A stretch of 64,000 nt of DNA, from NCBI RefSeq assembly GCF_002920895.1, contig NZ_PQVG01000003.1, positions 186,001 to 250,000 on the forward strand, given 5' to 3'. The notes under the pieces were generated by a model that made no database searches, was not told where the DNA came from, and saw only the letters and a program-made list of their open reading frames with translations. This stretch comes from Flavobacterium alvei (lineage in GTDB: Bacteria > Bacteroidota > Bacteroidia > Flavobacteriales > Flavobacteriaceae). A program made the position numbers and the translations under genes. Each line of letters opens with the position of its first letter. The stretch's first letter is position 1. Of the stretch, positions 11,033-16,955 are shown one piece after another.

Positions 11033-11103
11033 TGGTCTATGGTGTAATGGTAACACAACTGTTTTTGGTGCAGTCTTTCAAGGTTCGAGTCCTTGTAGAC
11101 CAA
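11033..11103 (+). tRNA. tRNA-Gln (anticodon TTG)
   Basis: A 71-base cloverleaf. The acceptor arms TGGTCTA and TAGACCA pair perfectly. The D arm is GTGT/ACAC, the anticodon stem ACTGT/GCAGT with loop TTTTGGT gives anticodon TTG, and the T arm is CAAGG/CCTTG with TTCGAGT loop. The discriminator base is A and CCA is not encoded, so it must be added after transcription. A consensus promoter lies upstream and a terminator directly downstream, so it is a single-gene unit. Confidence 0.97.
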
Positions 11104-11104
11104 C

Positions 11105-11169: not shown

Positions 11170-11994
11170 TTAAATTTTGAAAGTTATAACGGGTTTTATG
11201 GCGTGATTAATTAAGTCTTCACTAATACTTCCGTTATAAAAATGCGCCAATCCTGTTCGACCATGAGTACACATACCAATTAAATCGGCATTTACACTTT
11301 TTGCAAAATTAATAATTCCATTTTCGATATTTGTGTCGTTATAGATGTGAGTGGAGTAATTTTCGATATCGAAATGAGCGATAAAATCATTCATGTTTTT
11401 TTCGGTAGCGCTCGTGGTTTTAAAACTGGAAGGCGTACAAATGGTTACTAAAAATAATTTTGAATCGAAAAGTTTTGCAAATTCAAGCATTTTTCGGAAT
11501 GGTTTTCGAGTTTCTTTTAAAAAATCGGAAGCAAAAACAAAGTTGCTTGCTTTAAACTCTTTCACACCTTTTTTGATTACCAAAACTGGAATTTCTGAAT
11601 ATCGAACTATTTTTTCAGTATTAGAACCTACTAATAATTCATTAAATCCCGATGTTCCGTGAGACCCCATTACAATTAAATCGACATCGTTTTTTATACT
11701 TGCATCAACAACTCCTTCATCGACCTTTTTGAATTCGATAGATTCAAGCACTTCAATTCCTTGCAAAAAAGGAGAGTCCATTAATACTTCAAGCTTTTCA
11801 ATAGCTTTGTTTTTAAAAAATACTATCTCAGGAATACTATTAACATTTCCGAAAGCATCACTTGATTGATGTGGTAATTCTAAAAGGTGTAAAAGGATAA
11901 TTTTGAAATTGTTTTTTCGGGCAATTTGAGCGGCTACTTTTAGAGCTTCAATTGAATATTCCGAGAAATCTACAGGTACTAAAATCCGTTTCAT
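11170..11994 (-). CDS. tandem universal stress protein (UspA domains)
   Basis: 274 residues made of two Usp domains (about 1-140 and 145-274). The first starts KRILVPVDFSEYS and carries the ATP-binding pattern G-x2-G-x9-G-S (GSHGTSGFNELLVGS). The second has CTHGRTGLAHFYNGS, where the first glycine of the pattern is replaced by cysteine, so its nucleotide binding may differ. Two-domain Usp proteins of this kind respond to starvation, hypoxia or energy stress in many bacteria; the precise role here is unknown. It is a single gene, convergent with the tRNA. Confidence 0.9.
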   Translation of the reverse strand: MKRILVPVDFSEYSIEALKVAAQIARKNNFKIILLHLLELPHQSSDAFGNVNSIPEIVFFKNKAIEKLEVLMDSPFLQGIEVLESIEFKKVDEGVVDASIKNDVDLIVMGSHGTSGFNELLVGSNTEKIVRYSEIPVLVIKKGVKEFKASNFVFASDFLKETRKPFRKMLEFAKLFDSKLFLVTICTPSSFKTTSATEKNMNDFIAHFDIENYSTHIYNDTNIENGIINFAKSVNADLIGMCTHGRTGLAHFYNGSISEDLINHAIKPVITFKI

Positions 11995-12082: not shown

Positions 12083-12111
12083 TTTGATTTATAAAAAAAA
12101 CACTATATTTG
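12083..12111 (+). promoter_or_regulatory. promoter of rimP-nusA-infB
   Basis: TTTG at 12083-12086 and TATATTTG at 12104-12111 with a 17-bp spacer. Transcription should begin near 12118, giving a leader of about 55 bases that contains a terminator-like hairpin. Confidence 0.8.
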
Positions 12112-12140
12112 CACAGTTATTTATTAAAAAACTAGATAAT

Positions 12141-12166
12141 GAGGCACGCAAAGCGTGCCTCTTTTT
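12141..12166 (+). promoter_or_regulatory. terminator-like leader hairpin before rimP (candidate attenuator)
   Basis: A perfect stem GAGGCACGC/GCGTGCCTC with an AAA loop is followed by five T. It lies after the predicted transcription start and 8 bases before the rimP ATG. The usp gene points the other way, so this is not a terminator of an upstream plus-strand gene. Because nusA is in the operon, feedback attenuation is a reasonable inference. Confidence 0.65.
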
Positions 12167-12173
12167 ATAAAAT

Positions 12174-12638
12174 ATGACATTTAAAGATAAAGTAAACGGC
12201 TTAGTAATTGAGGCATTGTTGGAGAAACCTTCTGTTTTTCTGATTGATTTGACAATAACGGATAGTTTTAAAATTATCGTGAATTTAGATGGCGATAATG
12301 GAGTAGCTTTGCAGGATTGTATTGATATAAGTCGTGCAATTGAAAATAATTTGGACCGAGAAGAGCAAGATTTTTCTTTAGAAGTAGCCTCGGTAGGTGT
12401 TGGTTCCCCCTTGAAAATGGTACGCCAATACAAGAAAAATGTGGGTAGAACATTAATAGTAAAATTAGCAACCGAAACAATTGAAGCAGAATTAGTTGAA
12501 GCTAATGATAATTTTATAATTTTGTCATGGAAAGCTAGAGAAGCCAAAAAGCTAGGAAAAGGAAAAGAAACGGTTCAAAAAAGACAAGAAATACCGTACG
12601 TAGAAATAAAAGAAGCAATTGTTACAGTAACATTTTAA
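12174..12638 (+). CDS. rimP: ribosome maturation factor RimP
   Basis: 154 residues, the normal length for RimP, which assists assembly of the 30S ribosomal subunit. Family features include [20 protein letters not shown] and the [24 protein letters not shown] segment, where most species have LEVSSPG before the linker. The C-terminal SH3-like domain follows ([16 protein letters not shown]). It is the first gene of the rimP-nusA-infB operon, 13 bases from nusA. A long open frame on the other strand is a shadow. Confidence 0.95.
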
Positions 12639-12651
12639 TTAAATAGTTGGC

Positions 12652-13905
12652 ATGGAAAATTTAGCATTAATCGATTCATTTTCAGAGTTTAAAGATGATA
12701 AACTTATTGATCGTGTAACGCTTATGGCGATATTAGAAGATGTGTTTAGAAATGCATTGAAGAAAAAATTTGGATCAGATGATAATTTCGACATCATTAT
12801 CAATCCAGATAAAGGAGATATGGAAATCTGGCAAAGAAGAGTTATCGTTGCGGATGATGATTTAGATTTAGAGCATTTAGAAATTACATTGTCTGACGCT
12901 AGAAAAATTGAGCCTGATTTTGAAATAGGAGAAGAAGTTTCAGAAGAAGTGAAACTAATAGATTTAGGAAGAAGAGCTATTTTAGCATTGCGTCAAAACT
13001 TGATTTCTAAAATTCATGAGCACGATAATACTAATCTTTACAAACAATTTAAAGATTTAATAGGCGAAATTTATACTGCCGAAGTACATCACGTTCGTCC
13101 AAGAGTTGTAATTTTGATTGACGACGAAGGAAATGAAATTGTTTTGCCAAAAGAAAAACAAATTCCATCTGACTTTTTCCGTAAAGGAGATAACGTTCGT
13201 GGAATCATTGAAAGCGTTGAATTAAAAGGAAATAAACCTCAGATAATTATGTCTAGAACTTCAGAAAAGTTCTTAGAAAAATTATTTGAACAAGAAATTC
13301 CAGAAGTTTTTGACGGATTGATTATTGTAAAAAATGTAGTGAGAATTCCAGGCGAAAAAGCAAAAGTAGCTGTAGATTCGTATGACGATAGAATAGATCC
13401 AGTTGGTGCTTGTGTGGGAATGAAAGGATCCCGTATTCACGGAATTGTTCGTGAATTAGGAAACGAAAACATTGATGTTATCAACTATACAAGCAATATT
13501 CAATTGTATATTACTAGAGCATTGAGTCCTGCAAAAGTTTCTTCTATCAAAATAAATGAAGACACAAAAAGAGCGGAAGTGTTTTTGAAATTAGAAGAAG
13601 TTTCTAAAGCAATTGGTAGAGGTGGACACAATATTAAATTGGCAGGTCAATTAACAGGTTATGAGCTTGACGTAATTCGTGAAGGTGATGTTGCGGGTAC
13701 GGTTGCAGATGAAGACGATGTTGAATTAACTGAGTTTTCAGATGAAATTGAAGAATGGGTTATCGAAGAATTTGCAAAAATTGGTTTGGATACAGCAAAA
13801 AGTATCTTGAAACAAGATGTAGATGATTTGGTTAGAAGAACTGACCTAGAAGAGGAAACAATTCTAGATGTAATGAAAATACTAAAAGAAGAATTTGACA
13901 GCTAG
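12652..13905 (+). CDS. nusA: transcription termination/antitermination factor NusA
   Basis: 417 residues: N-terminal RNA-polymerase-binding domain (1-130), S1 domain (about 135-200, GEIYTAEVHHVRPR), and two KH domains with GMKGSRIHGIVRELGNE and GRGGHNIKLAGQLTG. It ends soon after KH2 with a short acidic helix region (LTEFSDEIEEWVIEEF...), so the extra C-terminal repeats of the E. coli protein are absent, as in most non-proteobacteria. NusA binds RNA polymerase and modulates pausing and termination. The gene begins 13 bases after rimP. Confidence 0.97.
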   Translation: MENLALIDSFSEFKDDKLIDRVTLMAILEDVFRNALKKKFGSDDNFDIIINPDKGDMEIWQRRVIVADDDLDLEHLEITLSDARKIEPDFEIGEEVSEEVKLIDLGRRAILALRQNLISKIHEHDNTNLYKQFKDLIGEIYTAEVHHVRPRVVILIDDEGNEIVLPKEKQIPSDFFRKGDNVRGIIESVELKGNKPQIIMSRTSEKFLEKLFEQEIPEVFDGLIIVKNVVRIPGEKAKVAVDSYDDRIDPVGACVGMKGSRIHGIVRELGNENIDVINYTSNIQLYITRALSPAKVSSIKINEDTKRAEVFLKLEEVSKAIGRGGHNIKLAGQLTGYELDVIREGDVAGTVADEDDVELTEFSDEIEEWVIEEFAKIGLDTAKSILKQDVDDLVRRTDLEEETILDVMKILKEEFDS

Positions 13906-14001: not shown

Positions 14002-16908
14002 ATGTCTGAAGAGAAAGTTATTAGAATAAACAAAGTTTTGAGGGAATTAAATATTTCTTTAGAAAGAGCTGTGGAATGTCTTAAAGATAAGGGGGTTTCT
14101 GTTGAATCAAATCCTAACACAAAAATTTCTGAAGCAGAATTCAATATCCTGCAAAATCAATTTGCTGGCGACAAGGGGAATAAAGAGGCTTCCAAAGAAG
14201 TAGGGGAAGAGAAAAGGAAAGAGAAAGAAGCATTGCGTATTGAACGAGAAAAAGAAGTTGAAGACAAACGCAAACAGGATGAAGAGCGTCAAAAAAGTCA
14301 AGAAGTCATCAGAGCTAAGGGTACTATCTCTGGGCCAGTTCACGTTGGAAAAATTGATCTTAATCCAAAAAAAGTAATTCCAACTCCAACACCTGAACCA
14401 GTTGTTGAAAAAACTCCACCACCAGTTCCAGTAGCCGAAATTCCTCAAGCAAAACCTATTCTAAGCGAACCAATTCAAAAAGAGACTCCGTTAAAAGTGA
14501 CTCTTCCAAAAGAACCAGTTCAAGAAAAAGTGATTCCTGAAGCAATAGTGAATAAGCCTGTTGCTGAAGCTAAAGAGATTAAAACGGAAGCTGTAGCTCC
14601 TAAAGCAGCAACTCCTCAAGTAAACGAAGTGCCTGCTGAAGAAACAATCACAACAAAATACCAAAAATTATCTGGTGCTACTTTAACGGGGCAAACCATT
14701 GATTTATCTCAATTTAATAAACCTAAAAAGAAAAAAGAAGAGCCAAAAATCACGCCTAACAAACCCGGAACTCCTGGAGCTCCTGGAAGTGCGGCAAATA
14801 ATGCCAACAAAAATAAAAGAAAAAGGATTGCTCCAAAACCAGGTGCGCCAAGACCACCAGCAACGCCTGGAGTTCCCGGAGCACCAAATCCAAATAAAAT
14901 CACTCCAAATGCTGGAGGTGGTGGAGGATTTAATGCTAACAGAGGTGCAAGACCTGGCTTCGTAAAAGGAGCGAGACCTGCTATTGTTGCTAAAGTTGAG
15001 CCTACCGAAGAAGAAGTTAAAAATCAAATTAGAGAGACTTTAGAGAAACTACAAGGAAAAGGTGGTAAATCGAAAGCAGCAAAATATAGAAGAGATAAAA
15101 GAGATACACACCGTCAAAAGTCCGATGATGAACAAAGAGCATTAGATGAAGGTAGCAAAACCATTAAAGTTACAGAGTTTGTAACTGTTGGTGAAATCGC
15201 TATTATGATGGATGTGCCAATTACTAAAGTGATTGGAACTTGTATGTCACTTGGAATTATGGTTACCATGAATCAGCGTCTTGATGCAGAAACGCTAACC
15301 ATTGTTGCGGATGAATTTGGCTATGAAGTAGAATTTATCACTGTTGATATTGAAGAAGCGATTCAAGTTGTTGAAGACAAAGAAGAAGATTTAGTTTTCA
15401 GAGCTCCTATCGTTACTGTAATGGGTCACGTAGATCACGGTAAAACATCTTTATTGGATTATATTCGTAAGGAAAATGTTATCGCAGGTGAGTCAGGAGG
15501 AATTACACAGCACATTGGTGCTTACGGAGTAACTTTGGAAGACGGTCAAAAAATTGCTTTCCTTGATACACCAGGTCACGAAGCGTTTACCGCAATGCGT
15601 GCGCGTGGTGCTCAAGTTACCGATATCGCTATTATTGTAGTAGCTGCCGATGATGATATTATGCCACAAACCAAAGAGGCCATTTCTCACGCTCAAGCTG
15701 CTGGTGTTCCAATTATATTTGCTATCAATAAGATTGATAAACCAAATGCTAATGTTGAAAAAATAAAAGAAAAATTAGCAGGTATGAATTTATTGGTTGA
15801 AGATTGGGGAGGAAAAATTCAATCACACGATATTTCAGCTAAATTCGGGATGGGTGTTAAAGAATTATTAGAAAAAGTATTATTAGAAGCAGAACTTTTA
15901 GATTTGAAATCTAATCCTAATAAAGCGGCACAAGGAACTGTTGTTGAAGCTTATTTAGATAAAGGGAAAGGATATGTTTCTACCATATTAGTACAACACG
16001 GAACTCTAAGAGTTGGAGATTACATGTTGGCAGGAAAACATCACGGTAAGATTAAAGCGATGCATGATGAACGTGGAAATATTGTTAAAGAAGCTGGACC
16101 TTCTACACCTGTATCTGTATTAGGTTTAGATGGTGCTGCAACTGCTGGTGATAAGTTCAATGTTTTTGAAGACGAAAAAGAAGCCAAACAAATTGCGGCC
16201 AAACGTTCTCAATTGATGCGTGAACAATCTGTTCGTACACAACGACACATTACTTTAGATGAAATTGGACGTCGAATCGCTTTGGGTCAATTTAAAGAAT
16301 TGAACATCATTCTTAAAGGTGACGTAGATGGTTCTGTTGAAGCCTTGTCTGATTCGTTCTCTAAACTTTCGACTGACGAAATCCAAATTAATATTATTCA
16401 TAAAGGAGTTGGAGCGATTACTGAAACCGATGTTATGTTGGCTTCTGCTTCGGATGCGATCATCATTGGATTTAATGTTCGTCCTGCTGGAAATGCAAGA
16501 CAATTAGCCGACAAAGAAGAAATTGATATCCGTTACTATTCTATCATTTACGCCGCAATCGACGACTTGAAAGATGCGATGGAAGGAATGTTGGCACCAG
16601 AAATGAAAGAAGAAGTGCTTGGTACTGCCGAAATTAGAGAGTTGTTTAAAATCTCTAAAGTAGGTACCATTGCAGGATGTATGGTTGTGGATGGAAAAAT
16701 TCTAAGAAATGCCAAAATCAGAATTATTCGCGAAGGTGTTGTGGTTCACACAGGTGAGCTAATCGCCTTGAAACGTTTCAAAGACGACGTGAAAGAAGTT
16801 GCCAAAGGGTACGATTGTGGTATTCAAATAAAAGGATACAACGACATCGAAGAAAGAGACGTTATCGAAGCCTTCCACGAAGTAGCTATCAAAAAGAAAT
16901 TGAAATAA
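14002..16908 (+). CDS. infB: translation initiation factor IF-2
   Basis: 968 residues. An IF2_N domain at the start ([20 protein letters not shown]) is followed by a long low-complexity region to about residue 340, rich in Pro, Lys, Glu and Gly with repeated PGAPG-type runs. The GTPase core has G1 [10 protein letters not shown]3 DTPGHEAF and G4 NKIDKP; the domains that bind initiator tRNA follow ([25 protein letters not shown]). IF-2 brings fMet-tRNA to the ribosome. It closes the rimP operon and has a strong terminator. Confidence 0.97.
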
Positions 16909-16925
16909 AATTTCGATTATTATAT

Positions 16926-16955
16926 AAAAATCCCGAGCAATCGGGATTTTTTTTG
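16926..16955 (+). terminator. terminator of the rimP-nusA-infB operon
   Basis: AAAAATCCCGA pairs with TCGGGATTTTT around a short loop and is followed by a T run. It begins 17 bases after the infB stop. Confidence 0.92.

Follow-up and report, generated by a model that had tools for sequence, protein, structure and literature searches.

A terminator-like hairpin before rimP-nusA-infB in Flavobacterium alvei and its relatives, a putative transcription attenuator

NusA sets how well hairpins terminate. In Flavobacterium alvei its gene stands in the operon rimP-nusA-infB, and a hairpin followed by a T tract is found between the promoter and the first gene. The locus thus raises the question of whether the operon is limited by termination in its own leader, and whether NusA itself decides how much. 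The leader was examined here in a window of 64,000 nucleotides (the whole stretch of DNA that was analysed; contig NZ_PQVG01000003.1, positions 186,001 to 250,000) and in the corresponding leaders of related genomes. The features of the window that bear on the question are listed below.

11033-11104: tRNA-Gln (ttg), upstream of the operon (Rfam match)
11170-11994, minus strand: Usp gene, divergent upstream neighbour (Pfam)
12083..12111, plus strand: promoter, -33 box TTTG at 12083-12086 and -7 box TATATTTG at 12104-12111 (sequence; -7 box also in relatives)
12112..12140, plus strand: short leader of 29 nt from -7 box to hairpin (spacing in relatives, folding)
12141..12161, plus strand: terminator-like hairpin with a perfect 9-bp stem, GAGGCACGC-AAA-GCGTGCCTC, loop AAA (sequence, terminator scan, conservation, paired changes)
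12162..12166, plus strand: T tract TTTTT, then ATA (sequence; kept in relatives)
12174..12638, plus strand: rimP (Pfam RimP_N, 30.8 bits against a cut-off of 22.7)
12652..13905, plus strand: nusA (Pfam NusA_N and KH_5)
14002..16908, plus strand: infB, encoding IF2 (Pfam IF-2, GTP_EFTU and IF2_N)
16926..16951, plus strand: terminator-like hairpin, probable end of the operon (terminator scan)

The promoter that an earlier note on this DNA had called a consensus one was indeed present, although its TTTG and TATATTTG boxes are those of a Bacteroidota-type promoter and not of the E. coli sigma-70 type. It was the sole full plus-strand match to TTTG-N16-23-TAnnTTTG between 11991 and 14100. Because the Usp gene is divergent and the tRNA-Gln is followed, as read in the sequence, by an inverted repeat with a T run, plus-strand transcription of the operon most likely starts from this promoter, as had been claimed. 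At gathering score, Rfam detected tRNA alone in the window.

The succession of promoter, perfect 9-bp stem and T tract before rimP was confirmed by the sequence and by the terminator scan, which ranked this hairpin first. Seven of the nine pairs were G-C, and none of 5000 dinucleotide shuffles of 12083-12173 gave even a 7-bp Watson-Crick stem with four G-C pairs and a T tract. The rimP ATG at 12174 was found 7 nt (not 8, as the earlier note had it) past the T run and 12 nt past the stem. Hairpin strength was compared with 484 kb of the same contig, on which 395 ORFs were crudely called. Of these ORFs, 22 had a hairpin with T's no more than 120 nt upstream of their start, 17 with a same-strand upstream neighbour and five without (rimP included). 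The leader hairpin displayed a stem energy of -15.9 and a T run of five, against medians of -12.65 and five for 56 terminator-like 3' sites. A weak, NusA-needy terminator was thus unsupported as judged by strength, the strength of the element being close to that of ordinary 3' terminators. This ordinary strength predicts marked termination before rimP-nusA-infB, and hence a need for read-through. The shortness of the T tract (five residues, then A) was counted against an attenuator, though its run equalled the local median.

The element was highly conserved in genus and family. Of 150 genus genomes, 146 gave a match to rimP, as did 186 of 199 family genomes (a sample that also contained F. alvei itself and a further Flavobacterium genome); leaders were read from 111 of the former 146, own genome included, and from 88 of 184 from other genera. 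Stem and T tract were found by script in 193 of these 199 leaders and by eye in four more (L049, L255, L265 and L274, for which the script had preferred another hairpin further up), while the two missed by the script, L192 (at a contig edge) and L225, had imperfect stems. Among the best 80 of 389 named relatives, which were mostly Flavobacterium and included one locus cut at a contig end (L063), the nearest was F. franklandianum, with 95% protein identity. The commonest family form was GAGGGGAC-N5-GTCCCCTC-TTTTTATA, the plain 8-bp stem being encountered in 108 and the tail TTTTTATA in 164 of the 193 leaders. Two other stems were frequent in the genus, namely GAGGGAAGC/GCTTCCCTC (28 leaders) and the window's form, GAGGCACGC/GCGTGCCTC (21 leaders). 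The first four bases past the stem were all T in 188 of the 193 leaders, the finder itself having required a T and four T in six. The consensus stem had a single site per genome in 80 out of 100 family genomes, against one out of 100 matched by a reversed control, and in all 64 single-copy genomes checked it lay 13-56 nt from the rimP match. A regulon formed by other copies was rejected, as the window's stem was found once in its own genome.

Pairing was preserved while the letters of the stem changed. A first count (ten distinct arm pairs, 100% paired) was circular, since the hairpin finder required pairing, and it was replaced by a MAFFT alignment blind to pairing, which contained 88 distinct genus leaders from 110 of the 111 (L192 left out). 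The nine pairs of the window's stem were standard in 96.2% of cells, against a mean of 79.6% and a maximum of 82.3% in column shuffles, which leave relatedness in; registers slid by one to three positions were 52 to 71% paired. Two Watson-Crick forms were encountered at each of pairs 5, 6, 7 and 8, and all rows having letters there were paired: pair 5 was C-G in 22 rows and G-C in 66, pair 6 A-T in 50 and G-C in 38, pair 7 A-T in 64, C-G in 22 and G-T in two, and pair 8 G-C in 51 and C-G in 29, with eight gaps. Pair 9 was only partly kept. A fixed-anchor test found eight of eight positions paired in 176 of the 193 genus and family leaders; its 19 distinct arm pairs, many of which came from slipped anchors, were 79% paired against 73% after shuffling (maximum 84%), which is not above chance.

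The position of the hairpin varied little with respect to the promoter. Measured from the last base of the -7 box, the hairpin stood at a median distance of 28 nt in the genus (sd 1.0, range 26-32, 110 leaders) and 27 nt in other genera (sd 2.6, range 11-30, 83 leaders with four script mis-picks dropped; sd 13.5 with them). Stem and start codon were 11-25 nt apart in the genus (sd 1.7) and 9-115 nt apart in other genera (sd 20.1). Being narrow on the promoter side and wide on the other over the family, these distances indicate that the hairpin is tied more to the promoter than to the start codon.

Outside the family, a hairpin with T's was found within 100 nt of the start in 78 of 81 leaders, against 1.5-3.5% in shuffles. 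These leaders represented 24 loci from the order, 30 from the class and 27 from the phylum; they were drawn from the best-scoring RimP matches, not at random, and their start codons were picked by rule, not annotated. Stem sequences differed in these outer groups. Three loci (L336, L340 and L349) failed the final criterion, of which L336 still displayed a 6-bp hairpin with TTT.

Elements of this kind are already known. The rimP-leader of Naville and Gautheret (2010) was described as an intrinsic-terminator hairpin with a U stretch just before rimP of rimP-nusA-infB, generally with no visible antiterminator and 4-130 nt from the gene, with a stem motif GGGc...gCCC and with Firmicutes and Gammaproteobacteria among its species; whether RimP or NusA is the regulator was posed as a question there, and the main text of that paper makes no mention of Bacteroidetes or Flavobacter (PMC2965389). 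The window's element resembles it, as far as that description goes, in its 5' UTR place before rimP-nusA-infB and in its hairpin and T stretch. It differs from the motif as given there in its arms, GAGGCACGC/GCGTGCCTC, the family consensus being GAGGGGAC...GTCCCCTC; the commonest form of the relatives, GGGGAC/GTCCCC (108 of 193 as plain 8-bp stem), holds GGG/CCC, not GGGc. The window's element would thus work like a rimP-leader, and strict membership of the motif is not claimed. The gammaproteobacterial leader of Rfam RF01770 (rimP) shares the gene context; its covariance model gave no plus-strand match, and with 14.2 bits its minus-strand match fell short of the gathering score of 47. The rimP leader of E. 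coli K-12 likewise closes with a G-rich hairpin and T run near rimP (GGGCTTTAGGCCCTTTTTTT), which contradicts the claim of the earlier note that autoregulation in F. alvei would proceed by a different element than in E. coli: the kind of element is the same and the stem sequence is another. Fusions of the E. coli rimP 5' UTR in a Rho mutant are mentioned in PMC7815308.

The closest functional precedent is that of B. subtilis, where, according to the statement in PMC12288461 (citing Mondal 2016), NusA controls its own expression by stimulating termination in the 5' leader. As in Flavobacterium, nusA lies there behind a leader hairpin on the same strand, which here was also the case without a detected rimP. 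The role of NusA is stated in PMC12288461 from NusA-depletion work, while in Flavobacterium it is a putative one; the B. subtilis leader is also longer (180 nt as given in PMC2965389), which was counted against the attenuator. Within the family, a structured 5' element before rimP of F. psychrophilum, also encountered in other genera of Flavobacteriaceae, is listed in PMC9723704 with no Rfam hit and no mechanism, and is very likely the same as the window's hairpin. In the literature searched, which covered few subscription journals, no mechanism was found for a rimP or nusA leader of Bacteroidota.

Genomes in which rimP was undetected allowed the hairpin to be followed independently of its neighbouring gene. 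They amounted to 13 of 199 in the family and to 21 of 98 and nine of 99 in two wider samples, of which three, ten and eight (21 in total) were searched for nusA. It was found in 19, with infB behind it at all 19 loci. Two of these loci (L383 and L384, cut or odd), two others with a rimP-like frame by eye between hairpin and nusA (L379 and L385) and four genomes with nusA at a contig start were left out, and 11 leaders could be assessed. A clear hairpin with T's stood directly before nusA in eight of them (L368, L371, L373, L376, L377, L380, L381 and L382), at a distance of 20 to 161 nt from nusA, which leaves no room for an intervening rimP. Two hairpins were weaker by eye (L375 and L378) and one leader, from a 0.3-Mb genome (L386), had none. 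The frame of L379 scored 19.2 bits with RimP_N, under the cut-off of 22.7, and represents a divergent rimP-like gene despite its undetected status; that of L385, which contains unknown bases, had no Pfam match. In four genomes of 0.6 Mb (L369, L370, L372 and L374; L408-L411) the contig end, which is the true nusA leader only if the contigs are circular, displayed no clear GC hairpin; rimP and hairpin both seem to have been lost from these reduced genomes. The missing hairpin in these four and in the 0.3-Mb genome was counted against the attenuator. The element seems to go with nusA-infB rather than with rimP, the latter being absent by detection, with a distant or divergent copy elsewhere being possible.

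Some of these loci displayed further peculiarities. A tRNA-Gln (ttg) lies directly before the nusA leader in L368 (1304-1377) and L376 (289-362), both without a detected rimP; its presence upstream of the operon in the window as well is consistent with rimP having been lost from this very place. A tRNA-Gln is also present in L255 and L265. The nusA match of L383 (G189) starts only at residue 144 and lies inside an open frame of 1964 codons, a fusion or an assembly fault.

The possible attenuator put forward in the earlier note was therefore supported by position and anatomy, by deep conservation with paired changes, by the kept T tract, by the narrow promoter distance, by the single place per genome and by the presence before nusA without detected rimP, the link with nusA-infB seeming to outlive that gene. 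Breadth, promoter-tied geometry, paired changes and persistence with nusA are the most useful additions to what was known of such elements. From the sequence, the hairpin likely terminates a fraction of transcripts. With somewhat more reserve, it can be regarded as a transcription attenuator that limits the rimP-nusA-infB operon and is probably stimulated by NusA. Transcription would start about 5-8 nt behind the -7 box; RNA polymerase would make a leader of some 20-25 nt, followed by the hairpin with its U tract, and part of the complexes would terminate before rimP. As NusA promotes hairpin-dependent termination, it would probably set this part, abundant NusA raising termination and lowering operon mRNA, scarce NusA allowing read-through. 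That the NusA level is the main input, the likeliest one by precedent, is a proposal for and against which we find the case about evenly balanced. A dedicated NusA sensor throughout Bacteroidota and near relatives, tied to the promoter, with the family stem present once per genome and following nusA-infB when rimP is lost, is suggested tentatively.

If this holds, the leaders of E. coli and B. subtilis would join those of Bacteroidota in indicating that NusA-stimulated termination before its own operon is a feedback loop both very old and bacteria-wide, with pairing kept and not stem sequence. A minimal leader of about 25 nt and one hairpin before nusA across much of the phylum would make a feedback device that is compact and can be tested, and NusA activity in Bacteroidota would have a natural reporter in it. 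On the question of RimP or NusA as posed in PMC2965389, the genomes without detected rimP speak for nusA-infB.

An attenuator of the same build could respond to something else, such as growth-linked elongation speed, NusG or Rho, or IF2 and translation, with NusA as a general helper only. Gene content cannot separate nusA from infB, linked at all 19 loci checked, so that IF2 or another factor could be sensed, which was counted against NusA as input. Folding and a check of the 5' stem against shuffles also revealed no antiterminator, alternative fold or sensor in the window's leader. The precedent of B. subtilis, as stated in PMC12288461, concerns NusA itself, and another input appears unlikely, though it is the most serious competitor. 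The same lack of an alternative fold, together with a strength like that of ordinary 3' terminators, would suit a constant partial terminator that, unregulated, holds short RNA and operon mRNA at a set ratio. By argument only, wide retention of a constant brake, instead of a weaker promoter, is hard to explain, and we consider this improbable.

Still less probable is a hairpin acting in the mRNA, by protecting its 5' end or controlling ribosome access at rimP. The ATG is just 12 nt away in the window, which would suit such a role, but the variable start distance in other genera, the narrow promoter distance, the kept T tract, without a role at mRNA level, and the presence before nusA without detected rimP all argue otherwise. 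Palindromic arms near a transcription start might also form an operator for a DNA-binding protein; the spacer between the 8-bp arms ranged from 1 to 8 nt among the 193 leaders (5 nt in 153), which a dimeric protein would tolerate poorly, the T tract was kept on one side, and arm sequences changed while pairing stayed, making an operator very hard to sustain. Control by a leader peptide, opened by the ATG at 12139 with a stop overlapping the rimP start, was rejected, since the ATG found at the base of the stem in 107 of 110 leaders of the genus was present in only 39 of 83 from other genera, the frame relative to rimP was mixed in both groups and no short ORF with a fixed frame was conserved.

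For a second, AU-rich 5' stem the genus leaders gave no clear support (the mean stem was 7.19, and 7.12 with shuffled 3' ends, sd 0.06); in other genera it was slightly above shuffles (3.36 against 3.02, sd 0.11, maximum 3.33), relatedness being left in. NusA is essential in model species according to PMC12288461. Outside the family, the leader of L340 carries an intact consensus stem upstream of rimP with a broken T tract (TTGCATTT); it was counted against the attenuator and constitutes a natural case bearing on the role of the T tract. Within the genus, the stretch TTATTTATTAAAA..TA(A/G)ATAAT, at 12117-12140 in the window, was strikingly alike in many leaders for no evident reason.
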